64,000 nt of DNA from Ruegeria sp. PrR005 (GTDB lineage: Bacteria > Pseudomonadota > Alphaproteobacteria > Rhodobacterales > Rhodobacteraceae), in contig NZ_JAAGOX010000013.1 of NCBI RefSeq assembly GCF_010500245.1, positions 1-64,000 of the forward strand, read 5' to 3'. Below the pieces are notes generated by a model. That model made no database searches and was not told the origin of the DNA. It worked only from the letters and a program-made list of their open reading frames with translations. Shown here one piece after another: positions 1,272 to 25,308 of this stretch. The position numbers were made by a program, and so were the translations under genes. Position 1 is the stretch's first letter. Every line of letters begins with the position of its first letter.

Positions 1272-1284
1272 CCCAATAATTGGG
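1272..1284. promoter_or_regulatory. second candidate operator, 13-base perfect dyad
   Basis: CCCAAT-A-ATTGGG is a perfect dyad with six-base arms, 44 bases upstream of the chosen WYL start codon. It sits where a repressor would block transcription of the defence operon. Its arms share an ATT core with the palindrome at 1222-1239, but the two are not the same site. Confidence 0.4.
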
Positions 1285-1327
1285 CGCGCATAGTAATCGT
1301 GCGCATCGACCAAGGCGGGAGCGCGTA

Positions 1328-2185
1328 GTGGAAAACGACAGGTCGGAACTTCGCTGGGGCGTCGAGCAGCGGCTCGAGTTCATCGAGTTTCGCCTGTTTT
1401 GGGAGGGGCATGTGAACCGAAGCGATGTCATGGAGCAGTTCGGGCTGTCGGTGAACCAGGCTTCATCCGACCTGAACCGCTACATCAGCTTCGCCCCGGA
1501 CAACATGACCTACGACAAGAGCGCACGCACCTACGTGCGCGGCCCGGGGTTCAAGTCTGTGTTCGGGAAGCTGGACGCTGGCCGATACCTGGCCCAGCTA
1601 CGCTCCCTCGAGGAAGGGCTCCTCGACCGCGATGACTGCTGGACCACTGACCTACCGGCCTTTGGCTCGACGCCAACTCCTGCACGCGGCGTTCATCCTG
1701 AAACCTTGCGCGCGGTTGTTGGCGCCATTCGCCGGACTGAGGCGATAGAGATCAACTACCAATCCTTGTCCAATCCCGAGCCGCGTTGGCGCTGGATTGC
1801 GCCCCACGCCATCGCTTTCGATGGGTTTCGTTGGCATGCGCGAGCCTTCTGTATGACGGACGATTGCTTCAAGGACTTCCTGCTGTCGCGGATGCTGGAA
1901 GTGCGCGGGACCGCTGAGGCTGTAACCACTGCCGCCGAAGATGCCGATTGGCATTCGGAGGTCACGCTGGAGGTGGGGCCCCACCCGGAACTGTCCGAGA
2001 CACAGGCCAAGGTGATCGCGCTCGACTACGGCATGCAGGACGGCAAAGCCGAGATCAAGGTTCGCCGCGCACTTCTCTATTACACCCTCAAGCGCCTTGG
2101 GCTGGACACGGATCCATCCGCCAGGAAACCGCAGGATCAGCAGATTGTTCTTCTGAACCGAGAGGTCGTCGATGCAAATTATTGA
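1328..2185 (+). CDS. WYL-domain transcriptional regulator (BrxR/CapW-like)
   Basis: A 285-residue protein with an N-terminal winged-HTH region (about 10-60, including RSDVMEQFGLSVNQASSDL), a central WYL-type ligand-binding region (about 140-215, EINYQSLSNPEPRWRWIAPH then FDGFRWHARAFC), and a C-terminal extension. The architecture matches the regulators that head many BREX, CBASS and R-M loci, which repress the operon and sense nucleic-acid or infection signals. The GTG at 1328 follows GGCGGGA and fits better than a TTG at 1280. The 3' end overlaps the helicase gene by 14 bases, so it is the first gene of the operon. Two palindromes upstream are candidate operators. Confidence 0.8.
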   Translation: MENDRSELRWGVEQRLEFIEFRLFWEGHVNRSDVMEQFGLSVNQASSDLNRYISFAPDNMTYDKSARTYVRGPGFKSVFGKLDAGRYLAQLRSLEEGLLDRDDCWTTDLPAFGSTPTPARGVHPETLRAVVGAIRRTEAIEINYQSLSNPEPRWRWIAPHAIAFDGFRWHARAFCMTDDCFKDFLLSRMLEVRGTAEAVTTAAEDADWHSEVTLEVGPHPELSETQAKVIALDYGMQDGKAEIKVRRALLYYTLKRLGLDTDPSARKPQDQQIVLLNREVVDANY

Positions 2186-5100
2186 TAACACATCGCGACT
2201 GCTTGGGGATGACCTGAAGGCCTCCATTGAACGCGGGTCACGTTTGCGGATCGCGGCATCGTGTTTTTCGATTTATGCATTCGAGGAGCTGAAAGCTGAA
2301 CTCTCGAAGATCGACAGTTTGCAGTTCATTTTTACGGCCCCGACCTTCGTTCCAACGGAAGTTACGGATCGGCTTCGGAAAGAGCGTCGAGAATTCTTCA
2401 TACCGAAGGCTCGGCGCGAAAGCGGCCTTTATGGTACGGAATTCGAGATCCAGCTTCGCAATAAGCTAACGCAGCGCGCTGTAGCCCGAGAATGCGCAGA
2501 TTGGATCCGCAAGAAGGCCAGGTTCCGCTCCAACACGAGCAAGGCGCCGATGCAGCAGTTCATGCACGTTGCAGGCTCTGACGGAGAGGTGGGCTATATG
2601 CCAATCAGCGGCTTCACCGCCGTGGATTTGGGCTACCAAAAAGGTGATGCGGTCTCAAACTTCGTCACACGTTTTGACGACCCTGCTCATGCGAAGATGT
2701 ACCTTCAGCTTTTCGACCAGATCTGGTCGGACCCGGACAAGGTGAAGGACGTTACCTCTGCCATTTGCGAGCATATTGAGTCCGTCTATCAGGAGAACTC
2801 TCCTGAGCGCATCTATTTTGCGATGCTATATAGCATTTTCCAAGACTTCCTTGATGAAGTCGACGAAGATGTTCTGCCGAACGATCTCACGGGTTATCAG
2901 GACAGCCTCGTGTGGAACAAGCTGTTCAACTATCAGAAAGATGCAGCGACCGGCATCATCAACAAGCTCGAGACGTACAACGGCTGTATCCTCGCGGACT
3001 CGGTCGGCCTTGGGAAGACGTTCACCGCCTTGGCGGTGGTCAAATACTACGAGTTGCGCAATCGCTCGGTCTTGGTCCTTTGCCCCAAAAAGCTCGCAGA
3101 TAATTGGCGCAACTATAACTCGAACCTGACCACAAACATTTTTGCCAAGGACAGGTTCAACTACGATGTGCTGTGCCATACCGATCTCTCACGGACTTCC
3201 GGCGAGTCCTTTGGCATCCCCCTCAATCGCGTGAACTGGGGAAATTACGATCTCGTCGTGATCGACGAGTCCCACAATTTCCGGAACAATGATGTCTACA
3301 AAGACCGGGAAACGCGGTACCAAAAGCTCATGAACAAGGTCATCCGCGCGGGCGTGAAGACTAAGGTCCTGATGCTTTCCGCGACGCCGGTGAATAACAA
3401 GTTCACCGATCTCCGCAACCAGTTGGCACTGGCATACGAGGGGCAGTCGGAGGCGCTCAGCAAAAGCCTGAAGAGTCAGGCCACCATTGAGGAGATCTTC
3501 CGACGGGCTCAGACTGCATTCAACGAATGGTCCGCTCTGCCTTCGGAGGAAAGGACCGCCGCATCGATATTGAAGTCACTGGACTTTGACTTTTTCGAGC
3601 TTCTCGATGCCGTCACGATTGCCCGTTCGCGGAAGCACATCGAAACTTTCTACGACACAAAAGACATCGGAAAGTTTCCCCAGAGACGCAAACCTCTTTC
3701 ACATCATCGGCCAATTACCGAGCGAACCGACGTGATGGGTTTCAACGATATCTTCTCGCAGCTTTCGGTGCTCAAGCTGGCAGTCTATGCGCCTATCAGC
3801 TACATCCTGCCGAGCCGACTGCGGAAGTATGAGGAAATCTATGACACGCAGACCGAGGGCGGTCGGGGCAAACTGAGGCAGGCCGATCGCGAGCGCAGCC
3901 TTCAGGCCCTCATGACGACCAACCTGCTGAAACGCTTGGAGAGCTCGGTTGCAGCGTTTCGTCTCACGCTTCGGTCCCTAGGTGCGAATGTTTCTCGCAC
4001 GCTCGATGCCATCGAAGAATTCGAAAAGACGGGGCGCAGCGGGAGCGTAAGTGACCACCTTGCGGAGATGAGTGACTTCGACCCGGAAGATGATGATCTT
4101 TCGGGCCTCGATGAATTCACGGTCGGAAAGAAGGTGCAGATCAGTCTCGCAGACATGGACCTGCCCTCCTGGAAGCACGACCTAGCTGCCGACCTTGTCC
4201 TGATCGAAGACCTGATCGCATCAATGGAAAAGGTCAAACCGGCGGACGACGCCAAGCTCCAGCATCTGCTTGCCCTTATCAGACAGAAGGTTGATGAGCC
4301 GCTGAATCCTGGGAACAGGAAAGTGCTGATCTTCACCGCGTTCGCTGACACCGCAAATTATCTTTACGACAACCTGGCGCCCTTCGCACACCAGCTCGGA
4401 CTGCATGTCGGCAAGGTCACCGGGTCGGACGCCCCCAAAACCACGCTCAAGAAGTCATACGACTTCCAGAGCGTCCTGACCTTGTTTTCTCCGCGCTCGA
4501 AAGAGAAAGCCATTGTCCTGCCAAACGATCCGGCTGAGCTGGACATTCTCATCGGCACCGACTGCATCTCGGAAGGTCAGAACCTGCAGGACTGCGACTT
4601 CCTGATCAACTACGATATCCACTGGAACCCGGTGCGCATCATTCAGCGTTTCGGTCGGATCGACCGGATCGGTTCCCCAAACAGCCAGATCCAGCTGGTC
4701 AACTACTGGCCCGACATCACGCTCGACGAATACATCAACCTCAAGGAGCGCGTCGAAAACCGGATGGTGATCACCGACATCACCGCCACTGGCGACGACA
4801 ACGTGCTCACGGCGAAGTCGAGTGACATCGCCTACCGCAAGGAACAGCTCAAGCGGCTCCAGGACGAGGTCATCGAGCTCGAGGACGTGAAGGCCGGAAT
4901 CTCGATCACCGATCTCGGGCTGAACGACTTCCGAATGGACCTGCTCAACTACGTCAAGGCGCATGGCGAGCTCGACAACGTGCCCTTCGGCATGCACGCC
5001 GTCGTCCCGGCGCAGCCAGAGCTGGGATTGCAGCCCGGTGTCATCTTCGCCCTGAAGAACATCCACGACAGCGTGAACGTCAACCAGCAAAACCGGCTGC

Positions 5101-5444
5101 ACCCCTTCTACCTGGTCTACATCGACGACGACGGCCAAATCGTCGCCGACCACACCGAGGTCAAGCGCCTGCTTGACCTGATCCGATCCAGCTGCAAGGG
5201 GCGGATCGAGCCCATGCGCGATGTCTGTCGCATCTTCAACGAACGCACCGAAGACGGGCGCAAGATGGGCCGCTATTCCGACCTGCTCTCCAGCGCGATC
5301 CGCTCGATGATCGAGGTGAAGGAAGAGAAGGACATCGACAGCCTGTTCAGCGGCGGTCGAACCACGGCGCTGACCCACACCATCAAGGGGCTGGACGACT
5401 TCGAGCTGATCGCCTTCCTGGTCATCGAAGGGGGCGGCTCATGA
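2172..5444 (+). CDS. SNF2-family helicase with PLD-like N-terminus
   Basis: A 1,090-residue protein. Residues about 1-200 resemble a phospholipase-D-like fold, but I see no HxK(x4)D catalytic motif; the corresponding stretch reads FMHVAGSDGEVGYMPISG. The helicase core follows: Walker A ADSVGLGKT near 278, DESH Walker B near 365, SATP near 405, and the C-terminal lobe with GTDCISEGQNLQ and QRFGRIDRIGSP near 800-835. This is an SNF2/DEAD-like dsDNA translocase as found in defence loci. It overlaps the WYL gene by 14 bases and the DUF4391 gene by 4, implying co-translation with the methyltransferase and Res genes. The last third is visibly GC-richer than the first two thirds, hinting at recombination. 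Confidence 0.85.
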   Translation: MQIIDNTSRLLGDDLKASIERGSRLRIAASCFSIYAFEELKAELSKIDSLQFIFTAPTFVPTEVTDRLRKERREFFIPKARRESGLYGTEFEIQLRNKLTQRAVARECADWIRKKARFRSNTSKAPMQQFMHVAGSDGEVGYMPISGFTAVDLGYQKGDAVSNFVTRFDDPAHAKMYLQLFDQIWSDPDKVKDVTSAICEHIESVYQENSPERIYFAMLYSIFQDFLDEVDEDVLPNDLTGYQDSLVWNKLFNYQKDAATGIINKLETYNGCILADSVGLGKTFTALAVVKYYELRNRSVLVLCPKKLADNWRNYNSNLTTNIFAKDRFNYDVLCHTDLSRTSGESFGIPLNRVNWGNYDLVVIDESHNFRNNDVYKDRETRYQKLMNKVIRAGVKTKVLMLSATPVNNKFTDLRNQLALAYEGQSEALSKSLKSQATIEEIFRRAQTAFNEWSALPSEERTAASILKSLDFDFFELLDAVTIARSRKHIETFYDTKDIGKFPQRRKPLSHHRPITERTDVMGFNDIFSQLSVLKLAVYAPISYILPSRLRKYEEIYDTQTEGGRGKLRQADRERSLQALMTTNLLKRLESSVAAFRLTLRSLGANVSRTLDAIEEFEKTGRSGSVSDHLAEMSDFDPEDDDLSGLDEFTVGKKVQISLADMDLPSWKHDLAADLVLIEDLIASMEKVKPADDAKLQHLLALIRQKVDEPLNPGNRKVLIFTAFADTANYLYDNLAPFAHQLGLHVGKVTGSDAPKTTLKKSYDFQSVLTLFSPRSKEKAIVLPNDPAELDILIGTDCISEGQNLQDCDFLINYDIHWNPVRIIQRFGRIDRIGSPNSQIQLVNYWPDITLDEYINLKERVENRMVITDITATGDDNVLTAKSSDIAYRKEQLKRLQDEVIELEDVKAGISITDLGLNDFRMDLLNYVKAHGELDNVPFGMHAVVPAQPELGLQPGVIFALKNIHDSVNVNQQNRLHPFYLVYIDDDGQIVADHTEVKRLLDLIRSSCKGRIEPMRDVCRIFNERTEDGRKMGRYSDLLSSAIRSMIEVKEEKDIDSLFSGGRTTALTHTIKGLDDFELIAFLVIEGGGS

Positions 5445-6202
5445 CCCTCTACGACTGGCCCCGCGCAAGCGCCTTCGGGCGCGTGATCCCCAAGAACAAG
5501 ATCTACGAACATGCCGGGGCGAACACGGGCCTAAAGGACCTCTTCGTGCGCGAGGTGGATCAGATCATCTGGTCACATAAGCTGGCGCCCGAGACGGTCA
5601 ATCTGGCGGCGACCAAGCAGGTGGCCGAGATACAGGTCTTCCGCATCACTGCGCGCACTGCGACGCTGGACACGAGCGTGCTGCGCGCCATCGACAAGGC
5701 CATTCCCTCTCCGCTGATCTTCGAGGTGGCACATGGCGGCCGCGTCAGGCTGACGGCCGCCTACAAGCGGCAGAGCGAGGCCGACAGCACCCGCTGGGTT
5801 GTGGGCGACTATTTTCAGGGAGACTGGCTGCCCGAGGACGCACCGCGCGCCCCGCTACCTGTGGCGCTGAACATGGGCGCGCTGTACGAGCGGTTGCTCG
5901 AGCCGCTGGTGGCGGGTCAGACGGCACGGTTGATCCCCAGGGCCGCATCAGGGTTTGGCGAGGCGCCTCAGGCATCCCTCACCCCTTCCGAGGCGGAGCG
6001 CCCCCTGTCGCTGGAAGAACGCATCGCGCAGGCTGAGGCGATTAAGACGCAGACGCGTGAGGTCGAGCGGATCACGGCGCGTCTGGGACGCGAAAAACAA
6101 TTCAACAAGCGCGTGGCGATCAATGCCGAGCTGCGCGCGGCGAAACAAGAACTTGAGCGGTTGACCGGGGCACACCCCGGAACCGCCGTGACGAATGATT
6201 GA
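5441..6202 (+). CDS. DUF4391-type protein
   Basis: A 253-residue protein with the N-terminal signature MTLYDWPRASAFGRVIPKN and a middle SPLIFEVAHGGRVRLTAAYK strand region typical of DUF4391. Such proteins sit beside type III-like methyltransferase and helicase genes. The C-terminal 60 residues (SLEERIAQAEAIKTQTREVE onward) should form a coiled coil, suggesting a bridging role in a complex. The start overlaps the helicase stop (ATGA). I know of no enzymatic motif in it. Its position between an SNF2 helicase and Mod/Res suggests an adaptor or assembly subunit, which is inference. Confidence 0.75.
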   Translation: MTLYDWPRASAFGRVIPKNKIYEHAGANTGLKDLFVREVDQIIWSHKLAPETVNLAATKQVAEIQVFRITARTATLDTSVLRAIDKAIPSPLIFEVAHGGRVRLTAAYKRQSEADSTRWVVGDYFQGDWLPEDAPRAPLPVALNMGALYERLLEPLVAGQTARLIPRAASGFGEAPQASLTPSEAERPLSLEERIAQAEAIKTQTREVERITARLGREKQFNKRVAINAELRAAKQELERLTGAHPGTAVTND

Positions 6203-6212
6203 GAGGAAGAGC

Positions 6213-8078
6213 ATGGACAAGCTGAAGATGCACAGCCCCGACCTGAGCCAGGACAACATCGCGAAAATCCGCGACCTGTTCCCGGGTTGCGTGACGGAAG
6301 CGCAGGACGAGGCGACGGGGGCGGTGCGTCTGGCGGTTGATTTTGACCAACTGCGTCAGGAGTTGAGCGACCACATCGTGGAGGGGCCGCAGGAGCGGTA
6401 CCGGCTGGACTGGCCGGGGAAACGCGAGGCCTTGGTGCTGGCCAACGCACCTATCGCCAAGACATTGCGTCCTTGTCGCGAGGAAAGTGTAGATTTCGAC
6501 TCATCCGACAACCTCTATATCGAAGGCGATAACCTTGAGGCACTCAAAGTCTTGCAGGAATCATTCTTGGGAGAGGTGAAATTAATTTACATTGATCCGC
6601 CCTATAACACTGGTCGAGACTTTATTTACGACGATGATTTCTCGCAAGATGCGAAGGATTACCTTGGGGCATCTGGGCAAACGGATGATGAGGGAAAGCG
6701 TCTGGTTGCCAACACGGAGGCGAACGGGCGTTTCCATTCCGATTGGCTCTCCATGCTTTACCCGAGACTTCACCTTGCCAAAAATCTTTTGGCGGATGAC
6801 GGTGTAGTCTTCATATCTATTGATGACAACGAAGTAGATAACCTTCGCAAGCTTGGTAATGCCGTATTTGGCGAAGCGAACTTTGTGGCCACGATTGTCT
6901 GGCAAAAAGTCTATGCGCCTAAGAATTCTGCGAAGTGGTTTTCTGAAGACCACGATTTCATTCTAGTTTTTGCCAAAAACAAAGAAAGCTGGTTTCCAAA
7001 CCAGCTCCCACGAACGGACGAAATGGAGGCACGCTACAAAAATCTCGACGATGACCCGCGAGGGCCATGGAAGGCAGCTGATATGACTGCTCGCAATGCT
7101 TACGATGCGGGAGTGTATCCCGTCGTGTCACCATCGGGCCGAAAAATTGATGGGCCGCCGACGGGGCGCTATTGGGCAATTAGTGAGGAAAACTTTAAAA
7201 AGCTAGACGCCGACAACAGAATCTGGTGGGGAAAGGATGGAAGTAACGTACCAGCAGTAAAGAAGTTTCTATCTGAAGTGTCATCCGGCAAGACGCCTCA
7301 AACTCTGTGGTTCTACGGCGACGTGGGGCACACCCAAGACGCCAAAAAAACTCTTCTGAAGTACGTGCAATTTGAGAACACCGAGAATGTGTTGAATTCG
7401 GTTAAGCCTGTTGAGCTTCTGCAGCGCATTGTTCAACTCGCTACCACGCCGAACAAAAGAGACATCGTTATGGACTTCTTTAGCGGAAGTGCACCCACTG
7501 CCCATGCTGTGCTAGCGCAAAACCGTGTCGACGGAGGGAACCGGCGTTTCATTGGCGTTCAAATCGCTGAACCTCTGCGCATTCCAGAAACCAAGATGAA
7601 GACCATTTTTGATATGGGGCGGATGCGCCTTGTTAATGTTGTGAACGAGCTGAAGGCCGAAGGTGAAGATGTAAAGGGCTTCCGGGTGCTCAAGGTCGAC
7701 ACCTCGAACATGAAGGACGTCTACTACCGCCCGGACGAGCTGAAACAGTCCGACCTGCTCGACATGGTGGACAACGTGAAGGAGGGCCGCACGGCCGAGG
7801 ATCTGCTGTTCCAGGTGCTGGTCGATTGGGGCGTGGACCTGACGTTGCCCATCCGCCGCGAAACGGTGCAGGGCAAGACCGTGTTCTTCGTCGACGACAA
7901 CGCCCTCATCGCCTGCTTCGACCGCGGCATCACCGAGGATCTGGTGAAAGAGCTGGCAGGCCATGAGCCGCTGCGCGTTGTCTTCCGCGACAACGGATTC
8001 GTCTCTGACGCGGTGAAGATCAACGTGACCCAGATCTTCCGCCAGCTTTCGCCCAGCACCGAAGTCAAAGCGATCTGA
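6213..8078 (+). CDS. type III-like DNA adenine methyltransferase (Mod)
   Basis: A 621-residue beta-class N6-adenine methyltransferase. Motif IV DPPYNTG is at about 128-134, and SAM-binding motif I follows later as [13 protein letters not shown] near 420, the order expected for beta-class Mod. The region between them would carry target recognition. ATG 6213 is preferred over ATG 6195 because GAGAGGAAG lies just before it; either start overlaps or abuts the DUF4391 gene. Role: modifies host sites, and with the Res protein downstream forms a type III-like restriction-modification core. The segment about 6460-7680 is markedly AT-richer than the gene ends, a sign that the catalytic/recognition core was exchanged. 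Confidence 0.9.
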
Positions 8079-8086
8079 GGCCGACC

Positions 8087-11000
8087 ATGAAACTCAAGTT
8101 CAAGGTTCAGCCCTATCAGACCAATGCCGTTAATGACGTGGTCGACTGCTTCACCGGCCAGCCCATGACCTCTGGCCTGACCTACCGCATCGACCCCGGC
8201 CGCACGGCGCAGACCAGCGCCTTCGAGGAAGGTTTTAAGAACGCCGACTTCGCGCTGACCGACGCGCAGATCTTGGAGAACATCCAGAAGGTTCAGCAAC
8301 GCCAGAACCTGCCCGTCACGCAGTCCCTGACGGAATTCACGACCCTGAATGCGCGGAGCGAACGTGGCCCCGTGGCCGCGACCTACAAACGCGACGCGCT
8401 GGCCGCGACCCGCGTTCACCTCGACATCGAGATGGAGACCGGCACGGGCAAGACCTACTGCTACATCAAGACCATCTTCGAGATGAACAAGCGCTACGGC
8501 TGGTCGAAGTTCATCATCATGGTGCCGTCGATCGCGATCCGCGAAGGGGTGTACAAGTCGCTGCAGATCACGGCGGACCATTTCACCGAAAGCTACGGGA
8601 AGAAGGCGCGGTTCTTCATCTACAACTCCAAGCGCCTGCACGAGTTGGAGAGCTTTTCGTCCGACGCCGGCATCAACGTGATGGTGATCAACATCCAGGC
8701 GTTCAACGCCAGCGGCAAGGACAACCGGCGCATCTACGAGGAGCTGGACGATTTCCAGACGCGCAAGCCCATCGACGTGATCGCCTCGAACCGGCCGATC
8801 CTGATCCTGGACGAGCCGCAGAAGATGGAAGGCAAGGCGACGATGGAGGCGCTGCCGAAGTTCAAGCCGCTGTTCATCATGCGCTATTCGGCGACCCACC
8901 GGACCCAGCACAATCGCGTTCACCGCCTGGACGCGCTGGACGCCTATAACCAGAAACTGGTGAAGAAGATCGCGGTCCGCGGCATCCAGACACGAGGTCT
9001 GGCCGGCACCAATGCCTACCTCTACCTAGAAGGCATCGACATCTCGAAAAAAGCCCCCGTGGCGCGGATCGAGTTGGAGGTGAAGCTGAAATCGGGCGAA
9101 ATCAAGCGTCAGCTGCGGCGGCTCGAGTTCCGCGACGACTTGTTCGTGGAGTCTGGCGAGCTGGACCAATACCGCGGATTCACGATCAGCCAAATCGATG
9201 CTGTGAACGACACCGTCGAATTCACCAACGGGGAAGTGTTGAGGGCTGGAGAGGCGAACGGTGACGTCTCAGAGCGCGACATTCGCCGCATCCAGATCCG
9301 TGAGACGATCAAAGCGCATCTGGACAAGGAAAAGCAGCTGTTCGCGCAGGGCATCAAGGTCCTGTCTCTGTTCTTCATCGACGAGGTGTTGAAGTACCGT
9401 GACTACGACCAGGCCGACGAGAAAGGCGAATATGCTCGGGTCTTCGAGGAAGAGTACGAGCTGCTGAAGGCCGAGTATCTGTCGGAGCTCGCAATCGACA
9501 ACGAGGCGTACCGGAAATATCTCGAGGGCATCGCTTCGGCCAAAACCCACAACGGGTACTTCTCGATCGACAAGAAGACGAACCGCCTCAAAGATCCTGC
9601 TGTTGGTGCCCGCTCTGTCGATTCCGACGATGTGGATGCATACGACCTGATCCTCAAGGACAAGGAACGCCTTCTTTCCTTCGCCGAACCCACTCGATTC
9701 ATCTTCTCGCACTCGGCGCTGCGTGAAGGCTGGGACAACCCGAACGTTTTTGTCATGTGCATGCTGAAGCACAGCGATAACACCATATCCCGGCGCCAGG
9801 AAGTGGGGCGTGGCCTACGGCTGAGCGTCGACCAACACGGCGACAGGATGGATCACCCAGCCGTGGTGCATGACATCAACGTGCTGACTGTGGTCGCAAG
9901 CGAGAGCTACAAGGACTTCGTGGCCGGGCTCCAGCAGGAGATCGCGGAGACCCTCTCGTCGCGCCCGAGGCAGGCAACCGAGGAGTATTTCACCGGAAAG
10001 ACGCTCTCCACCGAGCAGGGTAGCGTTGAAGTCACTGCAGCGATGGCGAAGCAAATCTACCGCTATCTGGTGAAGAATGATTACACCGACGATACGGACC
10101 AGATCTCTGCCGCCTATCACGAAGCAAAGGCCGAGGGAAAACTGGCCGACCTTCCCGACGACTTGAAGCCGCATGCGGAACAGGTGTTCCAGCTCATCGA
10201 TAGCGTCTTCAGCGACGCGCAATTGCCCAAAGTCGATGACGGCCGTAAACCCAAGACCAATCCTCTGAATGCGAATTTCGAGAAGAAAGAGTTCCAAGAG
10301 CTTTGGGCACGCATCAACCGGAAGGCGGTCTACCGGGTCGAGTTCGACTCAGTTGAGCTGATCCGCAAATGCGTCAGCGCGCTGGATAGCCAGTTGCGGG
10401 TTACTCCGTTGCAGTACACGGTTCAAATCGGCGTGCAGAACGACGGATTGACCGATGGCCAACTGCGTAGCGGCGACGGCTTCAAGGTCACGAACACGAC
10501 CACCAGTCATGGCGGTTCTGTCCACTCCCTGGTGAAGTACGACCTCGTGGGCAAAGTAGCCGAGAACGCTCAGCTGACCCGAGACACTGCAGCGTCCATT
10601 CTGGGCCAAATCACACCGGCGGTTTTCGAGCAATTCACCAAGAACCCCGAACATTTCATCGCCGAAGCGTCGCGTATCGTTGCTGAACAGAAGGCCGCGA
10701 TGGTGATCGAGCGCCTAGCCTATGATGAAGTCGACGAGCGGTACGACGTGGATATTTTCACTGCCAACCAGACCGGCCAGGATTTCTCGCGGGCAACGGC
10801 GAAGCTCAAGAACCATGTCTATGACTACGCGATCACGGACTCGGACGTGGAAAGAGCGTTCGTGCAGGAACTCGATACAAGCAGCGAAGTCGTAGTTTAC
10901 GCGAAGCTGCCGCGTGGCTTCCTGATCCCAACTCCTGTCGGGGATTACAACCCCGATTGGGCAATATCCTTCAAAGCTGGCAGCGTGCGGCACATTTACT

Positions 11001-11182
11001 TCGTAGCCGAGACTAAGGGCACGATGTCATCGATGAAACTGCGGGAAATTGAGAAGACCAAGATTGAGTGTGCGCGAAAGTTTTTTTCTGAAATCGGTCA
11101 GAAAGTCGCGCAGGATCGTGTCAAATACGACGTGGTTACGGATTTCGGCAAGCTGATGGACTTGGTCGGGCCGACGGCATGA
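8087..11182 (+). CDS. type III restriction enzyme Res subunit, helicase-nuclease
   Basis: A 1,031-residue protein. Walker [10 protein letters not shown] lies near 115-123, and the Walker B variant ILDEPQK follows. Motifs V/VI read [15 protein letters not shown] and [14 protein letters not shown], as in type III Res proteins. The C-terminus has the PD...ETK endonuclease motif: NPDWAISF near 957 and VAETKGT near 973. It should hydrolyse ATP, travel along DNA and cut after meeting unmodified sites together with Mod. It begins 8 bases after the mod stop and overlaps the GIY-YIG gene by 4. All key residues appear present, so it is probably active. Confidence 0.9.
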
Positions 11183-12156
11183 CAAAACCCCGCTCGATCA
11201 ACATTTTCCTGCTAGACGGCGACCCGAATGGTATTCGAGTAGCGCAAATCTCGATGTCGACGATCCAGGCGATTGCCTTCCGGCGAAATCAGCTGAAACG
11301 GGTCTGCAACGCATTCCCTGAGATCGAGAGGCCGGGTGTCTATGTGCTGATCGGCGGAGACGAGAACGAACCTGACCGCCAACTTGCCTACATCGGCGAG
11401 TCAGAGGGTGTTGGTGCACGCTTGTCCTATCACAATTCCAACGAGACTGGTCGGGATGCAAAAGTCTTCTGGACGGACACAGTCGTCCTGATCAGCAAGG
11501 ACGAGAACCTCACGAAAAGCCATGCGCGATACGTGGAGGCCTGCCTGATCAGAGGTGTCGGAAGCAATCCACGCTGGACAATCCCAAATATGAAGCGGCC
11601 ATCCGAGGATGCGGGAAAACTCCCCCTTCCAGACCGAGCTGCCATGGATGAGTTTGTCGATCAGACGAAAACCTTGGTCGGTGCACTCGGATGGGACCTA
11701 TTCCGCGAAATGCGGGGCCGCCCTGTCGAATCGACAAAGGAGGCTTTTCAACCCGTTAGCTCACAAGAGCTGAAGTTCTTCTTTCGGGGCGAGGGCTTCG
11801 CCGCCGAAATGCAGCTCGGTTCGTCTGGGGATTTTGTAGTCTTGGCTGGATCAAAGGCGCGGATCAAGACGACAACTACCATCCCACGGGGTACGACTGC
11901 GATGCGTCAGACCCTTCTGGAAACAGGCGTGCTACGGGAAGACGGAAATTTCTTGCTCTTCACCAGCGACTACAGCTTCACGTCTGCATCCGCTGCCGCA
12001 GCCACGGTGATCGGGGCCAGCGCGAACGGACGGATACTGTGGAAGCTTCCGGATGGGAGGACTTACTCGGATTGGGAAGCCAACCAAGACGGCACGAAAA
12101 CTGCGGACGGGGCATCCACCGAACTGCTCGGACGAACTCAGAGCGTAGTCGAATGA
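11179..12156 (+). CDS. GIY-YIG nuclease-like protein with DUF4357-like C-terminus
   Basis: A 325-residue protein. A GIY-YIG fold is recognisable from GVYVLIGG near 53, AYIGES near 71, a following Arg (GARLSYH) and a Glu-containing helix [11 protein letters not shown]. The C-terminal part (about 190-300, with [20 protein letters not shown] and [13 protein letters not shown]) resembles DUF4357, a module often appended to GIY-YIG proteins near methyltransferases. Expected activity: metal-dependent DNA cleavage or nicking. It overlaps the Res stop by 4 bases, so it is an integral part of the operon and gives the locus a second potential nuclease. Confidence 0.8.
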
Positions 12157-12202
12157 AAAGCCTCAGAATGTATTTGATCGCCGACGTCTAGGAGAAAGAT
12201 TT

Positions 12203-14407
12203 ATGTCAGAGGACCTGGGCACACGGCCATCCTGGTTTGTCGGTGCCGCCTATAACCGCACAGAAGACCAAACACCCAGATTTCTTGCCGACGGCATCTG
12301 GGAAAACGGATACGAGGACGGAAAATACGGTGATCTCGTGCGCTCGATGCGCCCTGGAGACAAGATAGCAATCAAGTCATCCTACACGCGCAAGCGCGAT
12401 CTACCGTTCGACAATCGCGGCGCAACCGTTTCTGTGATGGCTATTAAGGCGACAGGCACGATCACTGCGAACCCAGACGACGGCAAGCAGGTAAAGGTCG
12501 ATTGGGCTCCATCTGCGCCCCCGCGCGAGTGGTACTTCTACACCAATCGTTCGACGATCTGGCGTGTTGCTCCCGGTGAATGGATGGAGGACGGGCTTCT
12601 TTCGTTCGCTTTTGATGGTCGCCCCCAAGACATTGACCGCTTCCGGAACGAGCCATTTTGGCGCGAGCGGTTCGGCGACCTGAACGGCGAACAGCGGTTC
12701 CGCTGGACAACTTTCTACAGCGCGGTCGCCACCCGGTTGCTAGACTATCGAAATGACCGCCGGCCTCTTGTCGACGGGATTCAGTCGATTTCTGGAGACC
12801 TCCCCGGTCTCGGCATCTATCTAAATGATCGCTATCCGAGCGGTGAACGAGGGCCACTCCAGGATATCTGCCCTTTCACCACAATGGGCATGTTCAACCG
12901 GTCGATGACGGATGCCAATCGTCATCTAATCGCAGGTGCTCTGGGAAAACTGCTAGGTGTAGAGGAAGCCCCTCCCGATTCATTCGAGGGAATACCAGTT
13001 CTGAATAACCAGCGGTCTTGGTTCTTCAGCTACGCTGACAAGCGTGGCGCGGATGATATCGATCGGTTGTGGGAGTTATTTGCGGCTGCAGCGGCCCTAT
13101 TGGATTCGGACCAGCAAGAATTGCGCGCGGATTTCGTGCAGGCCTATGACGCTGCCGTGGAAGTCTGGGGAGCCTCGTGGAACCTCTCGACGGGTCTATA
13201 CTGGTCGCATCCCTGGGAGTTTCCGACGCTCGACAGCAACTCGCGCGCGTACATGACTGGTCGCTTACAGATGCGGATCCCTGTTATTGGGCCACAAAAG
13301 CCTTGCAGCGGTGCAACCTATCTGAAGCTCGTCGATGACCTAAAGGCTCGCTTTGGCGAGGATAGCTACCCCGTGCACAGCTTCCCTGAGCTTTCGCTGG
13401 CATCCTGGCACTACAAGGCGCCTGATGACCCGTCCGCAGAACCAGACCTAGCTAAACCGGTTGGCACGGAGGATGAAGGCGAGTCTGCAGTTGAGACCGT
13501 CCAAGTACCCGCACCGATGGAGCCTTATTCGGTCGACGATATCCTCCGGGACGGTTCCTTCCTAGACCGCAACGAAATCGAGCGCCTTCTGGAGCGGCTC
13601 CGCACCCGGAAGAATTTGATCCTGCAGGGGCCACCGGGGACAGGAAAGACTTGGATGGCCAAGCGTCTTGCTTTCGCGCTGATGGGAGAGCGCGACGAGG
13701 CGCGAGTTCGCGCCGTCCAGTTCCACCCCAACCTCTCCTACGAGGATTTCGTGCGTGGATGGCGTCCAAGCGGTGATGGCAAATTGACCCTTGCCGACGG
13801 CGTTTTCATGGAAGCGATCCGAGCGGCGCTTGGCAGGCCAGAAGCCCGCTTCGTCGTTATCATCGAGGAGATCAACCGCGGTAACCCCGCACAGATTTTC
13901 GGCGAACTGCTTACCCTGCTCGAGGCTGGAAAACGCACGCCGCGCGAGGCGCTTGAACTCTGCTATCCCGATGCTGACGGCAAACGCCGCCCGGTTCATG
14001 TGCCCGAGAATCTCTTTGTCATTGGTACGATGAACATCGCAGACCGTTCGCTGGCGCTGGTCGACCTCGCGTTCCGGAGGCGCTTCGCCTTCGTCGGTCT
14101 TGAGCCGAGGCTGGGTGAAGCCTGGCGGCGGTGGGTAACCGAAAAAGGCGGCGTCGACCCCGCCCTCGTCGACGACATCGAACGGCGTATCGTGGCGCTG
14201 AATGCGCAGATCGGTGAGGCATTTGGCCGCCAGTTCGAGATCGGGCATAGCTACGTGACGCCGACGGCAAGACTCGAACCTGCCGCTACGCGCGAGTGGT
14301 TCAGACAGGTTGCCGAAACGGAAATCGGACCACTTCTCGATGAATACTGGTTCGATGCCCCAAAATCAGCGCGCGATGCCGTCGAGAAGCTGCTGCAGGG
14401 ATGGTGA
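12203..14407 (+). CDS. mcrB: McrB-like AAA+ GTPase with EVE-like N-terminus
   Basis: A 734-residue motor subunit of an McrBC-type, modification-dependent restriction system. The N-terminus (WFVGAAYN, then PGDKIAIKSSYTRKRDLPFD) resembles EVE/ASCH-like modified-base readers rather than the classic E. coli McrB N-domain. The AAA+ core has Walker A GPPGTGKTW near 474, Walker B VVIIEEINRGN near 551 and MNIADRSLALVD near 609, a variant of the McrB signature MNTADRS. GGAG 7-10 bases upstream supports ATG 12203. It lies 46 bases after the GIY-YIG gene in the same direction and overlaps mcrC, so it may be co-transcribed with the type III-like genes. Confidence 0.88.
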   Translation: MSEDLGTRPSWFVGAAYNRTEDQTPRFLADGIWENGYEDGKYGDLVRSMRPGDKIAIKSSYTRKRDLPFDNRGATVSVMAIKATGTITANPDDGKQVKVDWAPSAPPREWYFYTNRSTIWRVAPGEWMEDGLLSFAFDGRPQDIDRFRNEPFWRERFGDLNGEQRFRWTTFYSAVATRLLDYRNDRRPLVDGIQSISGDLPGLGIYLNDRYPSGERGPLQDICPFTTMGMFNRSMTDANRHLIAGALGKLLGVEEAPPDSFEGIPVLNNQRSWFFSYADKRGADDIDRLWELFAAAAALLDSDQQELRADFVQAYDAAVEVWGASWNLSTGLYWSHPWEFPTLDSNSRAYMTGRLQMRIPVIGPQKPCSGATYLKLVDDLKARFGEDSYPVHSFPELSLASWHYKAPDDPSAEPDLAKPVGTEDEGESAVETVQVPAPMEPYSVDDILRDGSFLDRNEIERLLERLRTRKNLILQGPPGTGKTWMAKRLAFALMGERDEARVRAVQFHPNLSYEDFVRGWRPSGDGKLTLADGVFMEAIRAALGRPEARFVVIIEEINRGNPAQIFGELLTLLEAGKRTPREALELCYPDADGKRRPVHVPENLFVIGTMNIADRSLALVDLAFRRRFAFVGLEPRLGEAWRRWVTEKGGVDPALVDDIERRIVALNAQIGEAFGRQFEIGHSYVTPTARLEPAATREWFRQVAETEIGPLLDEYWFDAPKSARDAVEKLLQGW

Positions 14408-15507
14408 CCGCCGCGACAAATCTGTCGCACGAGGCTGCGGGCTTCATCGGGCGCATCCCCGTGCGCAACATCTGGCTGCTGATGCTCTACGCGTCGGATC
14501 TGCTGAAAACGTCAGAGCGCGCGCTGGTCGACGCGGAACGCAACCCGGATGAGATCGCCGACCTCGTCGCGCGACTGCTGGCACAGGCTGTGGAGGAGCG
14601 ACAGCGCCGGCAGCTGAGTCTCGGCTATCGGCCGCGCAGCGCGGACCTCTCGCGCGTGCGGGGCCGGATCGACGTCTTGCGCACCGAGCGTCGCCAGCTG
14701 CTCGCGCGCGGCGCGGTGGCCTGTCGTTTCGTCGAACTCAGCGTCGACACGCCGCGCAACCGCTTTGTTCGCGGTGCGTTGGAAGCGGTGGCGCGATTGG
14801 TGTCACACCCGGATCTGCGCCATCGCTGCCGTCGCCTCGCCGCGGACATGCAGGCTTTGGGGGTCTCGGGTGCGATGCCGTCGCGGAGCGAGCTCAGTGC
14901 CGACCGCATCGGGCGACACGACGCGGCGGATCGCGAGATGCTGGCGGCCGCTAAGCTGGCCGTAGACCTCGTCCTGCCCACGGAGTTGGCGGGCCCCAGA
15001 CCCCTGCCGATGCCGGATCGGGAGGAACAATGGGCACGACGGCTCTTCGAGCGGGCTGTGGGCGGCTTTTACCGCGCGGTGTTGCCGTCTAGCCGCTGGG
15101 ATGTGCGAACGGGCCGTCCACTTGATTGGCCGGTCGACTGGTGCAGCGACGGCGCCCGGGACATCCTGCCTGGCATGCGGACCGACGTCGTACTCGACGA
15201 TCTGGTGGCGGACCGACGCATCGTGATTGATACAAAGTTCACCGGGATCGTCACGGCCGGTTGGCGGCGCGAAACCACGCTGCGCAGCGGATACCTTTAT
15301 CAGATCTACGCCTATCTACGGTCGCAGACCGGGCGTGGTGACTCGCTGGCCGACGTTGCCGAGGGCCTGCTACTGCACCCCGCCATCGGCGAAACGGTCG
15401 ACGAGGCAATCCTTGTGCAGGGTCATTGCATCCGGTTCGCCACAGTGGATCTCGCTGCGGATAGCGCCGCGATCCGCGCGCAACTTTTGGGCCTTTCGAT
15501 CAAGTGA
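14401..15507 (+). CDS. mcrC: McrC-like nuclease subunit
   Basis: A 368-residue partner of McrB. The N-terminal part starts with IGRIPVRNIWLLMLYASDLL, a typical McrC opening, and a PD-(D/E)XK core lies near the C-terminus (RTDVVLDDL near 260, VIDTKFTG near 275, then YLYQIYAYL). The catalytic triplet reads DTK rather than the more common ETK, which is tolerated in the superfamily. Start ATG 14401 overlaps the mcrB stop (ATGGTGA); GTG 14404 is an alternative. Role: endonuclease recruited by the McrB ring to cut modified DNA. The gene is clearly GC-richer than mcrB. Confidence 0.85.
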   Translation: MVTAATNLSHEAAGFIGRIPVRNIWLLMLYASDLLKTSERALVDAERNPDEIADLVARLLAQAVEERQRRQLSLGYRPRSADLSRVRGRIDVLRTERRQLLARGAVACRFVELSVDTPRNRFVRGALEAVARLVSHPDLRHRCRRLAADMQALGVSGAMPSRSELSADRIGRHDAADREMLAAAKLAVDLVLPTELAGPRPLPMPDREEQWARRLFERAVGGFYRAVLPSSRWDVRTGRPLDWPVDWCSDGARDILPGMRTDVVLDDLVADRRIVIDTKFTGIVTAGWRRETTLRSGYLYQIYAYLRSQTGRGDSLADVAEGLLLHPAIGETVDEAILVQGHCIRFATVDLAADSAAIRAQLLGLSIK

Positions 15508-15638: not shown

Positions 15639-17564
15639 TCAGTAGTCAGTCTCGACATACACCCCCGAGCAATCGTAGGCGACTGCCGCCGCCGTAGCGC
15701 CATTGTTCGTGAAGTTGCGCGGGCTCAGGAGTTGCGTGGCGGCAGGGATGTCACTGTTGAGTATCACCTCGACCACCGCCCCGCTGACCTCCTCGACCAC
15801 CCGGACGCCGATCTCGCTGCTGTTCGGGGCGGCGAGGAGCGTGAGGGTCAGGACGTTCGTCGTGCTCGCGACCGGGAAATTCGCCCCGAGATCGGTAAGC
15901 GTCGGCGCGCCGGAGGCATCGTTCTGCACCAACTGCCAGTTCGTGTGGGTGCCGCGCTGGAAGCCGATGCCGATGCAATTCACTACGGCCGAGAGCGTCA
16001 GGGTCGTGGCCAGCGCTGCCGTCGACCCGTAGAGGCCGAAGAAGCCCATACCGGTCGCCTGCAGCGTCACCAGCGAGAGCCGGTTCACATAGGTGAAGCC
16101 GCCCAGCCCATCCGCATTGCCGCGCCAGCAGACCCATCCGGCCGAGCGTTCCTCGGCCGCCGCATCGGCGGTGGCCGCGCTGGTCACGCGCCAGCGGCGC
16201 ATCGAGGTCGAGAGGTTCGTGGTAGCGAGCGTCGGCGTGGACACGGTGCCGACAGCGGTGCGCGGCATGCCGTTGGTATTGACGGTCGTGCCGGTGGAGG
16301 GCGCCCAGGTCGCGATCCGGTTCACCCCGAAATGCGGCTGCAGCGGAAAGAACCGGCCCGAGGGGCGCTGGACGTCGAGCCAACCGGCTCCGGCGCGGTC
16401 GCGGGCATAGAGGGCGATCTTGCCGGTCGGCGGCGGTGCGGGTACGGCGCTCACCGCCGGCAGCAGCACAGGCTCGGGCATCTCGACCCGGCCATTGCTG
16501 CGGTCGATCCGGAGCGCCTCGTAGAAGGCCGAGCCGTCCGGGCTGACCTTGAAGCTGAAATCGTCGCAGCCGAGAAGGCCGATCAGAGCCCGGGCCGACC
16601 AGTTGGTCTTGAAGGCGAAGCTCGCATCGTTGGCAGGCGCGGCCTTGTTGACCGTCGCCTCGATCCCGGCGCCTGCGTTGTTCAGGAGTACCGCGGGCGT
16701 GTTGACCGAGAGCCGGTTGTAGCTGTCGGCCGTCGCTCCGCCGAGGCCCAGCAACTGCGCGGTCAGGTTCGCCTGGGGCATGCCGACCTGCGTCACGGCA
16801 TTGGCGAAGGTGACGGTCGGAGTGTTGACCACCGTCGTGCCGTTCGCGCCCAAGTTCGCGGGGCCGATGTTGACGACCGTGGTCGACCCCGACGCGCCGC
16901 CGGTGCCGAGGTTCACAGTCTTGGTGAGACCACTGGTCGTCGCCCCCGTGCCCATGCCGTAGGTCGCGGTACCCGACGCCGTGCCAATGGTGGCCGTCGC
17001 GCCCGAGACCGTGACGGTGCCAGAGGCTGTCAGCGTGCCCGAGAAGGTCTTGTTGCCGGTGAAGGTCTGCGTGCCCGCGAGGATCGCCAGTTCCGAGGAG
17101 GTGTTGGGCAGCGTGTAGCTGCGGGTCGTGCCGGTGCTGATACCGGCGAGCGAGAAGACCGCCTTCTTGGTGGGATCGGCGTCGTTCACGAGGCTGAAGA
17201 CGGCGTCAGAGATGTCGCTCGGCTCGCCCATGACCTCCCAGGCGGCACCTGTCCAGACGAGCAGCACGGCCTCGTCCTCGACCCATGTCCGCCAGCCGAT
17301 GCGCGGCGGCAGGCGTAGCCAGGCGCCGTCGGACCAGAGGGCGATATTCAGGTCCCACCCCGCCCAATCGCCGGTGGCGCCGGAAGCGACGATGTAACGG
17401 TCGCCATCGGCGGGAGAACTCGGCGGCGCCGTCAGGTCCCGGTCAATAACGGAAAGCTGGACGAGCCCGTCGAGGATCCGCAGCGCCTCGTTATGGGTGA
17501 CGTGCTTCTGGGCCTGCGCCGCCAGGATGTAGGGCAGTAGGAGATGGGTCGTCGTGTCGGACAT
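15639..17564 (-). CDS. DUF2793-containing phage spike/fibre protein
   Basis: A 641-residue structural protein. The N-terminal 110 residues carry the DUF2793 signature ([46 protein letters not shown]). This domain occurs in tail or head-spike proteins of GTA-like and Rhodobacterales phages. The middle (about 150-260) is a Gly/Thr/Ser-rich run of short TGN, SGT and TVNLGTG units that should form beta-helical repeats. The C-terminus ([11 protein letters not shown] onward) looks like a receptor-binding or knob domain. It is the last gene of the rightward-starting, minus-strand late operon, converging with mcrC across 131 bases. Confidence 0.8.
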
Positions 17565-20500: not shown

Positions 20501-21540
20501 TGTACCACGGCAAAATCAGCGGGCGTGCCGCCATAGACAGGGCGGTCTTCAGCGTCGCTGCTGACGAGGATGGCATTGGCGCGGCTGACGCCATTGACCG
20601 ACCAGCCGACCGGCGCCGTGGATTTCGCCGTGACCTCGACGCCCGGGCGCAGATTGCAGGAACCCGCGCGCAGGTCGTCGCCGAACCAGGCGACGACGAG
20701 GCTGACGCTCTCGACGGCCGGCGCCATGGCCTGCAGGCGGTCGAGCGCGACCACCATGTCGGCGGTGTCGGGTAGCGCGTTCAGGTTTTCGGCCTGCGTC
20801 GCGCCGCCGGAGGATTTGCGGATGGCCTGGGTGGCATAGGTGAACTCGCCCGAGGCCGGGATCAGGGTGACAGCGCGGGTCAGCCCCTCGGCTGTGTCGG
20901 GGTCGGCGAGCGGTCGGAAGACCTCGAAGGACAGCTGCGGCAGGCGGTTGCCGTAGCTCGACAGCGGCAGTTCCTCGAAAACGACATAGGCCGTGCTGCG
21001 ATAGGCCGGAGTGTTGGCCGCGCCCATCTTCGCCGCGATGAACGGATCGGCCGCCTGCGCCTCGTCGCCGGGATACCAGCGCCAGGTGACGCCCGCGAGG
21101 TCCATCGGCTTTCCGTCGGCCCAGATGCGCCCGATCCCGGTGATCGGCCCCTCGCAGAGCGCCACGGCAAAGCTTGCATAGTACAGATATTCGGTCGTCT
21201 TGACCTTGCCGCCCCCGCCGCCCTTGCCGCCACCCTGCGTGGTGGTCTTCGTCTCTTCGCGGAAATCGGTGGCCCAGATGATGTTGCCGCCGATCCGCAT
21301 CCGGCCGTAGAGGCGTGGGATCACGGCTCCCTCAGTCGAGGACGTGATGCGCAAGTTGTCGAGCCGCGCCCCTTCGATCCGTTGCGTCGGCGCGAGCGAG
21401 GACACGATCCAGCTGTCGACGACAGAGCCGATGGTGGAACCGATGAAGCCGCCGATGGTCGCGGCGCTGACGCCGAGGATCGCGCCACCGATCGAGCCGC
21501 CGATGGCGGCTCCGGCGGCACCGAGAATGAGGGTGGCCAT
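17575..21540 (-). CDS. GTA-type baseplate multidomain (tail tip/host specificity) protein
   Basis: A 1,321-residue protein matching the large tail-tip protein of gene transfer agents and related siphoviruses (GTA TIM-barrel plus phage-tail domain). The N-terminus is a Gly/Ala-rich hydrophobic stretch ([19 protein letters not shown]). The TIM-barrel, glycoside-hydrolase-like region is at about 400-760 ([26 protein letters not shown]). The remainder is a tail-hub/fibre-like fold. Role: hub of the tail tip that contacts the cell surface and helps penetrate the envelope. It follows the peptidase gene and precedes the DUF2793 spike gene, the usual GTA order. Confidence 0.9.
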
Positions 21541-21549: not shown

Positions 21550-21984
21550 TCAGCGTTGCGGAAAAAGAAAGGCGAAGGCGATGCGCCGCCGCCATGCTGC
21601 CGTGAGCGGCTCCTCGATCACGCCGAGTCGCTCGTAGGCGTGGAGGAAGGTGTCGGGGTCAGTGACGATCCCGACATGCTTGGCGATGGCGCGCGGCATC
21701 ATCCGGAACAGGATCAACGCACCGGGCCCGGCCTCGGATGGATCAAGTTCCGGCATCATGCGCCGCGCGCCCTCGGCCAGCACCTCGCGCGGGCCGGTTT
21801 CGCCCCAGTCCCGGCTGTAAGGCGGGATCAAAAATGGCTCGGGGCCGACGACGTTGCGCCAGACACCCCGGGCGAGCCCGAGGCAATCGCATCCGACGCC
21901 CTGAAGGCTGGCCTGATCGTGATACGGCGTGCCGAGCCACGAACGCGCTGCCGCGATAACCTTGTCGGGATGGGCGGTGTTCAC
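21550..21984 (-). CDS. NlpC/P60-family tail peptidase
   Basis: A 144-residue protein with an N-terminal helix containing GTPYHDQAS, catalytic Cys in VGCDCLGLARGVW near 32, and catalytic His in AKHVGIVTD near 104. These are the marks of phage/GTA NlpC/P60 cell-wall hydrolases carried at the tail tip. It would cut peptide bonds in peptidoglycan during DNA entry. The start overlaps the DUF2163 stop (ATGA-type), indicating translational coupling in the tail operon. Confidence 0.9.
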   Translation of the reverse strand: MNTAHPDKVIAAARSWLGTPYHDQASLQGVGCDCLGLARGVWRNVVGPEPFLIPPYSRDWGETGPREVLAEGARRMMPELDPSEAGPGALILFRMMPRAIAKHVGIVTDPDTFLHAYERLGVIEEPLTAAWRRRIAFAFLFPQR

Positions 21985-23539: not shown

Positions 23540-23542
23540 GGG

Positions 23543-24202: not shown

Positions 24203-24207
24203 GGAAG

Positions 24208-25305: not shown

Positions 25306-25308
25306 GGC

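Follow-up and report, generated by a model that had tools for sequence, protein, structure and literature searches.

A run of eight forward-strand genes near the beginning of a contig from Ruegeria sp. PrR005 (NZ_JAAGOX010000013.1) combines a type III restriction-modification pair, the methyltransferase Mod and the restriction subunit Res, with a WYL-domain regulator, an SNF2 helicase, a DUF4391 protein, a GIY-YIG nuclease and an McrBC pair. The 64,000 nucleotides analyzed (positions 1 to 64,000, starting at the first base of the contig, C13) are called the window below. The question raised by this locus is which of its genes belong together. An earlier reading of the sequence, here called the original prediction, had regarded all of them as one composite defence operon. 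Based on the comparisons presented below, the locus is probably a prophage-borne defence cassette built on an enlarged type III core of four genes, in which the helicase and the DUF4391 protein form an accessory module added to Mod and Res.

Conservation of the four-gene core

Searching 84,980 genomes with an alignment of DUF4391 plus two short peptide patterns yielded 428 relatives, of which the best 80 were retained; homologues of the window genes were marked in these loci first by single sequences and then by profiles built from the loci. The order SNF2 helicase, DUF4391, Mod, Res was found nearly everywhere. The helicase lay directly upstream of DUF4391 in 78 of 79 testable loci, Mod lay downstream of it in 75 of 75, and Res was present in 65 of 66. 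Profile marking alone gave the helicase in 74 of 79 loci, with an over-long DUF4391 frame overlapping the helicase in L031, L086, L087 and L088. Co-occurrence of the helicase and DUF4391 with Mod and Res in other genomes, set beforehand as the test of the original prediction, was common rather than rare. The proposal that the two proteins are partners of Mod and Res is supported by this regularity, and a larger Mod/Res machine may fairly be supposed.

Since the 80-locus set leans to close relatives, an even draw of 299 Pseudomonadota genomes was also sampled. DUF4391 was present in 19 of them (approximately 6%), and in the 20 stretches of this phylum sample the testable loci held the helicase in 14 of 14 cases, Mod in 17 of 18 and Res in 12 of 13, one partial match (L118) going unrecognised. 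All seven plasmids chosen from 43 DUF4391 records have helicase, DUF4391, Mod and Res in order, some plasmid cores being broken up by insertion sequences or other genes. Ten viral-contig loci also carry the full core order (the helicase of L006 is truncated by the contig end). The helicases of L014 (plasmid) and L011 (viral) were missed by profile marking owing to the same over-long frame artefact. Because identical helicases occur across the sets (L003/L051, L046/L112, L086/L087 and L096/L110, with L006/L007 looking alike), pooled counts include some loci twice.

The association was also evident from the helicase side. The helicase model matched 188 of the 299 genomes at E<=0.001, most of these matches being weak and of a general helicase kind; among helicase-family matches above 300 bits, 16 of 17 adjoin DUF4391 (two candidates scored per genome). 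The sole exception, L119 in genome G071, has a same-family helicase (348 bits) with DUF4391, Mod and Res not found nearby.

Some further features of individual loci were recorded. The core is in pieces in L012 (insertion sequences) and in L068 and L076 (broken frames or sequencing errors). DUF4391 was found on 14 Escherichia plasmid records, and in one E. coli plasmid (CP057716, L015) the core lies on an IncFIB plasmid that also encodes a site-specific integrase and products annotated as a porphyrin biosynthesis protein and an AAA ATPase, a gene set that, we presume, recalls phage-plasmids.

Shared history of the core genes

Pairwise distances of the helicase and of Res were closely correlated over 85 complete loci (r = 0.96; best of 499 shuffles, 0.27), and those of helicase, DUF4391 and Res all tracked one another (r 0.91-0.96). 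Matches to the PADLOC family of Res at E<=0.001, many of them weak, occurred in 68 of the 299 genomes. Strong Res matches with fetched surroundings were followed, leaving aside some contig-edge and weaker matches, and 15 of these loci, the window included, have DUF4391 upstream. In the Res tree (FastTree, with long-branch warnings), loci with and without DUF4391 are intermingled, with seven changes forced by starred branches, a rough count since several rows labelled plain are undecided loci.

Features of the core proteins

The helicase has SNF2 and Helicase_C domains (Pfam), with motifs that we take to be Walker A and DExH-type conserved across homologues. The original prediction had called it PLD-like. 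In the present analysis this label is based on a full-length match to the PADLOC model C3a139 (‘HKD+Snf2’) and on our view of its layout; the N-terminal part gave no Pfam PLD domain at E<=0.01 and has no conserved HxK. At the expected place (H132 with K134) the HxK pair was found in 0 of 104 homologues, K134 being present in one, and HxK occurred elsewhere within the first 260 residues in 19 of 104. H173 with K175 is present in 16 of the 104, the window protein included. Residue 175 varies (Q in 39 homologues, K in 16), and H173-x-K175 was therefore taken as chance. An active PLD nuclease was rejected as a trait of the family given the unconserved HxK, and the PLD-like domain is therefore thought, rather than proven, to be non-cutting; the window protein, which has H173 and K175, might itself have such an activity.

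The AlphaFold2 model of the DUF4391 protein (predicted local distance difference test, pLDDT, 80.7) has two long C-terminal helices. A known fold was considered for this protein and rejected (best Foldseek value 0.09; one PDB match by sequence profile, 0.17). PADLOC models cover the helicase (C3a139) and the GIY-YIG protein (PDC-S14), and no PADLOC model matched the DUF4391 protein at E<=0.001. Mod matches type III methyltransferase models along its whole length and contains DPPY, which we take to be its methyltransferase motif. Res combines ResIII and C-terminal RE_endonuc domains, with residues of the endonuclease region conserved across homologues, and its helicase part matches the structure of EcoP15I Res (4zcf, 8.9e-74).

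Layout of the gene run

The eight genes follow one another on the plus strand from 1280 to 15507, from WYL to McrC, as judged by the list of open reading frames and by Pfam, PADLOC and NCBIfam matches (Table 1). The original prediction was right about the common strand but counted nine genes, and its WYL start at 1328 would be an internal GTG of a gene that begins at 1280. The short overlaps of 4-14 bases it described at most junctions were recovered at five of seven (14, 4, 8, 4 and 7 bases), gaps of 8 and 46 bases separating Mod from Res and the GIY-YIG gene from McrB, respectively. Its labels for DUF4391, Mod, Res, McrB and McrC were borne out by Pfam, PADLOC and NCBIfam. In the case of GIY-YIG, the Pfam match was weak (0.003, below the curated cut-off), while a full-length PDC-S14 match (1e-94) agreed with the label. 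The spacing suggests that all eight genes could be transcribed as a single unit. The guanine-cytosine content was 0.54-0.65 for the genes from WYL to McrB, 0.67 for McrC and 0.68-0.69 for the two adjoining tail genes.

Table 1. Features of the gene run and of the adjoining prophage in the window.
Feature	Position	Strand	Supporting match
WYL-domain regulator, BrxR-like; first gene of the cassette, facultative	1280..2185	+	Pfam WYL 8.7e-11
SNF2 helicase with PLD-like N-terminal part, probably degenerate; core	2172..5444	+	PADLOC C3a139 1.2e-128; SNF2, Helicase_C
DUF4391 protein; core	5441..6202	+	PF14335 4.1e-54
Mod, type III DNA methyltransferase; core	6195..8078	+	PADLOC MTase_III 1.9e-220; Pfam N6_N4_Mtase
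Res, type III restriction subunit; core	8087..11182	+	PADLOC REase_III E=0, 1113 bits; Pfam RE_endonuc 2.3e-33
GIY-YIG nuclease with DUF4357; closes the cassette, facultative	11179..12156	+	PADLOC PDC-S14 1.2e-94
McrB GTPase; separate type IV system, outside the core	12203..14407	+	NCBIfam McrB 4.6e-68, below cut-off; structures 6hz4
McrC; separate type IV system	14401..15507	+	NCBIfam McrC 2.9e-117, above cut-off
Final tail gene of the prophage (DUF2793), facing the defence genes; forms the slot's right border	15639..17564	-	Pfam DUF2793; phrog_13925, tail-fibre phrogs
Prophage tail protein, kept beside the slot in relatives	17575..21540	-	phrog_4271 E=0
Remaining typed prophage	21981..49146	-	PHROGs

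Accessory genes and McrBC

The WYL and GIY-YIG genes are facultative and common to unrelated defence systems. WYL was found in 26 of the 80 genome loci (25 of 71 testable loci when required to end within 1 kb of the helicase), and a close homologue heads a bacteriophage exclusion (BREX) operon in L169 and other systems in viral contigs. GIY-YIG was present in 7 of the 80 loci, or 7 of the 63 in which the sequence continues for 1 kb or more beyond Res. It also occurs in 4 of 10 viral loci, two of these copies being distant, and was found in none of the 20 phylum-sample loci and none of the 7 plasmids. Of the 24 other strong PDC-S14 matches in the phylum sample, 20 were inspected with their surroundings, some of them near contig ends, and the core was absent from all 20. 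A PDC-S14 GIY-YIG gene closes the BREX operon of L141; another comes directly after a type I restriction subunit in L146, overlapping it by 4 bases, and a third, in L150, is flanked by a type I restriction subunit on one side and, on the other, by a type I methyltransferase together with the gene next to it. Operon-linked copies, except the distant L008 and L011, fell in one starred clade of 13 in the GIY-YIG tree, together with three copies not beside Res (L141, L145 and L146). The suggestion that GIY-YIG is a built-in second nuclease is not supported, given its rarity at core loci and its presence in BREX and type I operons.

Other genes also enter or follow the core. In the pooled loci, genes are inserted at 13 of 115 DUF4391-Mod junctions and 34 of 104 Mod-Res junctions, and a same-strand gene follows Res in 59 of 91. 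Typed by one representative each, the largest accessory group was Schlafen/AlbA-ATPase (24), located between Mod and Res, followed by GIY-YIG (12), GajA/OLD-like (7), Mrr (7), RhuM (5), PLD-like (4) and SIR2 (4); two further representatives were GmrSD-like.

At 12203-15507 an McrB AAA/GTPase stands beside McrC, the composition of an McrBC type IV restriction system. This pair was absent from the slot of the three nearest relatives (L021, L024 and L169). McrC matches at E<=0.001 were found in 19 of 149 genomes of the family, of which, besides the window, only those of G304 and G334 are close; neither pair has DUF4391 nearby. The G334 pair stands beside a divergent set on the opposite strand (helicase, methyltransferase and ResIII-like; 92, 252 and 31 bits to the profiles), and the G304 pair adjoins two large genes without class. 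McrB-like genes, a count that detects only relatives of the window's McrBC, occurred in 3 of the 80 DUF4391 stretches (L022, L054 and L085), all out of the window's order (two upstream, one on the opposite strand). Given its absence from the relatives' slot and nearest kin lacking DUF4391, McrBC was rejected as a part of the system, contrary to the original prediction. In the window it takes the position that GIY-YIG, beside DUF2793, fills in these relatives. Together with the unlike junction sequences, this agrees with McrBC having been inserted later. Classical McrBC reads methylcytosine and Mod of the type III kind usually makes methyladenine, so Mod methylation and McrBC need not conflict. 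Another McrBC pair, only distantly related (351 and 34 bits to the profiles), was observed at 10017-13999 of L159, facing the prophage DUF2793 gene (15674-17596) about 1.7 kb away.

Prophage setting and exchange of systems

The region from 15.6 to 49 kb of the window is a tailed-phage prophage on the minus strand, whose last tail gene is faced by the defence genes, as determined by PHROGs typing of 20 prophage-side proteins rather than of every gene. Beyond the two tail genes next to the run, which the original prediction had overlooked, the prophage encodes tail assembly, tape measure, capsid-protease, portal, terminase, methyltransferases, primase, helicase and exonuclease. A gene transfer agent was rejected as the neighbour, since PHROGs give phage head, packaging and replication genes. 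Two of the prophage methyltransferase genes lie at 39727-42343 (minus strand), one with a ParB-like part (phrog_498, phrog_1008).

In two relatives (L021 and L024) the run WYL-helicase-DUF4391-Mod-Res-GIY-YIG ends 45 bases before DUF2793 and the same tail gene, and no McrBC is present. In genome G297, where L141 and L169 are parts of one contig, a BREX run faces these tail genes instead; read from the tail, its order is GIY-BrxL-PglZ-PglX-(untyped 1046-codon open frame at the BrxC place)-BrxB-BrxA-WYL. At the DNA level, the WYL gene of L021 matches L169 at 81% up to position 6717 of L021; no match follows until 15990, one base into GIY-YIG (start 15989), from where it continues at 92% into the tail genes. 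Similar breakpoints were found with other systems. In comparison with the viral contig L189, whose system consists of a UvrD-like helicase, a type III-like methyltransferase and a ResIII/TnsA-like protein, L021 again loses similarity at 6717 and regains it at 15993. The match begins at 15990 against L188 (BrxL), at 15993 against L193 (PLD_Helicase) and at 15992 against L194 (type I genes), while L195 (HNH gene, GIY-YIG, DUF2793, tail) matches at 74-78% from 15987. The contigs of L188, L193 and L195 begin inside the system, only its last gene being visible in the first two, and L194 ends at GIY-YIG and shows no tail gene. In L145, GIY-YIG lies 0.8 kb from the DUF2793 gene, with no typed system. 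Different defence genes thus occupy one site in L021, L024, L169, L188, L189, L193 and L195, as in a prophage hotspot. On the other side, a tyrosine integrase precedes WYL in L021, L024, L189 and others, and in 17 of 22 WYL-bearing viral loci, some of them on like contigs, a tyrosine or serine recombinase ends no more than 1.5 kb before WYL. By analogy with these relatives, the same left border may apply in the window.

Several further observations were made. The three-gene system of L189/L199 (L199 6360-13763) includes a ResIII/TnsA-like protein that matches no PADLOC model at E<=1e-15. A type IIG-like gene lies beyond DUF2793 in L160. Elsewhere in the window's genome a second related tail gene (G000:C55:111568-115491, 47% identity) was found, and the 14 kb behind it (L181) hold no WYL, GIY-YIG, McrBC or core genes. 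A single stretch upstream of WYL in L169 has two oppositely directed matches in the window (631-705 and 51387-51523; 83% and 79%), possibly marking a shared control region; a repeat search inside the stretches gave no explanation of the match. Lastly, in L206 (9555-17412) a WYL gene, a ResIII protein, a protein whose PADLOC candidate matches are all weak and a type III methyltransferase stand beside a serine recombinase, a possible further type III variant. L208 and L212 have similar reading frames, typed in L206 only.

Proposed mechanism and alternative explanations

Building on the observed gene content, conservation, prophage setting and exchange breakpoints between relatives, we infer the biochemical steps of the following scheme, including the role of the helicase and DUF4391. 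Within the type III family, Mod methylates DNA and directs Res to unmethylated sites. Mod of the cassette would mark host and prophage DNA at a sequence motif, and Res, guided by Mod to unmarked sites, would cut incoming DNA. The helicase and DUF4391 would jointly act on the same DNA as an accessory, ATP-driven and probably non-nuclease module that makes Mod/Res restriction effective; they might clear bound proteins, load or stop Res, or remove the need for a second site. That they gate Res or clear the way for it is a possibility to which we give somewhat less than even weight. WYL would govern expression, GIY-YIG would be a shared add-on nuclease and McrBC an independent neighbour targeting modified DNA. 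In relatives the cassette sits with the prophage integrase on one side and the tail genes on the other, a place where related prophages have other complete modification-based systems between close WYL and GIY-YIG genes; systems would be exchanged by homologous recombination in these flanking genes. On a broader and still tentative reading, a family of alphaproteobacterial prophages would have a slot into which whole immune systems based on modification (helicase-DUF4391 type III, BREX and others) can be plugged, with WYL as regulator and left recombination arm, and GIY-YIG/DUF4357 as shared effector and right arm. One plug-in would then be an unnamed four-subunit type III machine, with a dead-PLD helicase and DUF4391 gating Res.

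A number of results weigh against the enlarged core or against the slot. The helicase is truly missing at L052 and Res at L042, and L106 of the phylum sample lacks both Mod and Res. Despite at least 8.7 kb of upstream sequence, 6 of 21 decidable Res loci have no DUF4391 (L120, L123, L124, L125, L126 and L127; nine further loci that run off the contig end or are cut short were excluded). One of the six, L124, carries another kind of helicase next to Mod (73 bits to the profile), and the Mod match of L120 is weak (46 bits). Since Res also occurs without DUF4391, the association is asymmetric, the helicase and DUF4391 being tied more closely to Mod/Res than Mod/Res to them. Mod distances follow those of the other core genes less closely (r 0.70-0.74), which would fit exchange of the target-recognition part of Mod, and linked genes share their history anyway, so the correlation between helicase and Res is no proof of contact. 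The structure model of the helicase is poor (pLDDT 46.2) and the DUF4391 model found no PDB structure by Foldseek at E<=0.001; as DUF4391 thus resembles no solved fold, the role given to it is a guess. With regard to the slot, the tail genes were found in only 2 of the 80 DUF4391 stretches (L021 and L024), so that it explains few copies of the core. The tyrosine integrase of the relatives has no homologue in the window (a serine recombinase was not sought); as the contig starts only 1.3 kb before WYL, the left border does not show there. Of 13 stretches of the family with a DUF2793 relative, nine (L158-L161, L163-L165, L167 and L168) have no WYL, GIY-YIG or core at the slot, the others being L169, L145 and the too short L162 and L166. 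Behind the tail genes of 18 more distant prophages, a profile search likewise found no WYL, GIY-YIG, core or McrBC.

Some of these results would be expected if the island had arisen by mere juxtaposition of an ordinary type III pair and an independent helicase-DUF4391 system, each working alone. The six Res loci without DUF4391 and the genes intervening at the DUF4391-Mod and Mod-Res junctions agree with such an origin. Random neighbours would not, however, give a helicase and DUF4391 behind which Mod and Res stand in constant order at almost every locus, with L119 as the one helicase relative on its own, and we consider this explanation unlikely. At the other extreme, all eight genes, GIY-YIG and McrBC included, could be one machine, as their tight one-strand spacing in the window might suggest, along with the three McrB-like genes among the DUF4391 stretches and the McrBC pair facing DUF2793 in L159. 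Yet GIY-YIG is rare or missing at core loci and also closes a BREX operon, all three McrB-like genes are arranged otherwise than in the window, and McrBC is absent from the slot of L021, L024 and L169, which makes a machine of eight genes highly improbable.

A third explanation concerns the mode of action: Mod, the helicase and DUF4391 could halt phage DNA replication without cutting, as a BREX-like block, with Res as one effector among several. The helicase matches include DrmD and BrxH, and the cargo genes vary. The defence island system associated with restriction-modification (DISARM) shares the plan of an SNF2 helicase with an N6 methyltransferase. The same plan is that of BREX-related systems in the available part of their description (PMC12839542). 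Such a block is nevertheless rather doubtful: Res is kept at all but one testable locus with its C-terminal endonuclease region conserved, and among the matches listed there is no PglZ, BrxC or DrmB, DrmA appearing only as a lower match of the helicase. The enlarged type III core in a prophage-borne cassette is the reading we prefer.

Type III restriction is the textbook two-gene system. A common variant with two more co-inherited genes, if real, would change views on type III control. The slot, for its part, offers a natural experiment, in which close phage ends, regulator and nuclease surround a different immune system each time, and it makes testable whether a shared regulator and nuclease serve whichever system is plugged in.

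Comparison with known systems

DISARM consists of DrmA, DrmB and DrmC beside DrmD or a methyltransferase. The window resembles it in having an SNF2 helicase beside a methyltransferase and a partial DrmD match, but that match reaches 156.9 bits against a curated cut-off of 610, and no window gene has DrmA, DrmB or DrmC as its best match. BREX requires PglZ and BrxC, neither of which was among the PADLOC matches listed for the window genes, whereas PglZ is present in L169. The BREX-related Type-2 systems comprise an HKD-Snf2 helicase, DUF3780 and an N6 methyltransferase, as far as the available part of the source goes (PMC12839542). They share with the window the PLD-like and SNF2 helicase together with a DNA methyltransferase; the window differs in its best helicase match (C3a139, not PLD_Helicase), its type III Res and its unconserved HxK, and it has no DUF3780 gene, the DUF3780 model being matched only partially, by residues 215-296 of the GIY-YIG protein.

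Regarding the setting, P2 and P4 prophages carry anti-phage hotspots of approximately 1-5 kb (PMC9122126, as partly available). The likeness lies in a fixed site, bounded by conserved phage genes, at which the defence genes vary; unlike those hotspots, systems of about 9 and 13 kb (L021 and L169) are swapped here between WYL and GIY-YIG genes. WYL regulators of the BrxR family have been described as preceding BREX as well as type I and type IV systems, and clusters of type III with type IV have been published (PMC9122601, as partly available). In contrast to the cases in that portion of the paper, the related prophages carry different systems behind close WYL genes, and the breakpoints are mapped. 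Neither the four-gene core nor a WYL/GIY-YIG slot that exchanges whole systems was found described in the open-licence literature searched, where a single paper names DUF4391, in a table, three name PDC-S14 and none names PF14335.

Among the closest known systems are the type III systems EcoP15I and EcoPI. Type III restriction-modification consists of Mod and Res and is not known to require a further subunit, and cleavage needs two inversely oriented sites and ATP. Mod of the window belongs to the type III family and Res has the SF2 helicase and C-terminal endonuclease of its class; the two are adjacent, in the same order as in EcoP15I and EcoPI, and Res matches EcoP15I Res. The difference lies in the co-inherited SNF2 helicase and DUF4391 that precede them, neither of which, to our knowledge, is part of EcoP15I. 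The system is best regarded as a variant of type III restriction in a prophage hotspot.

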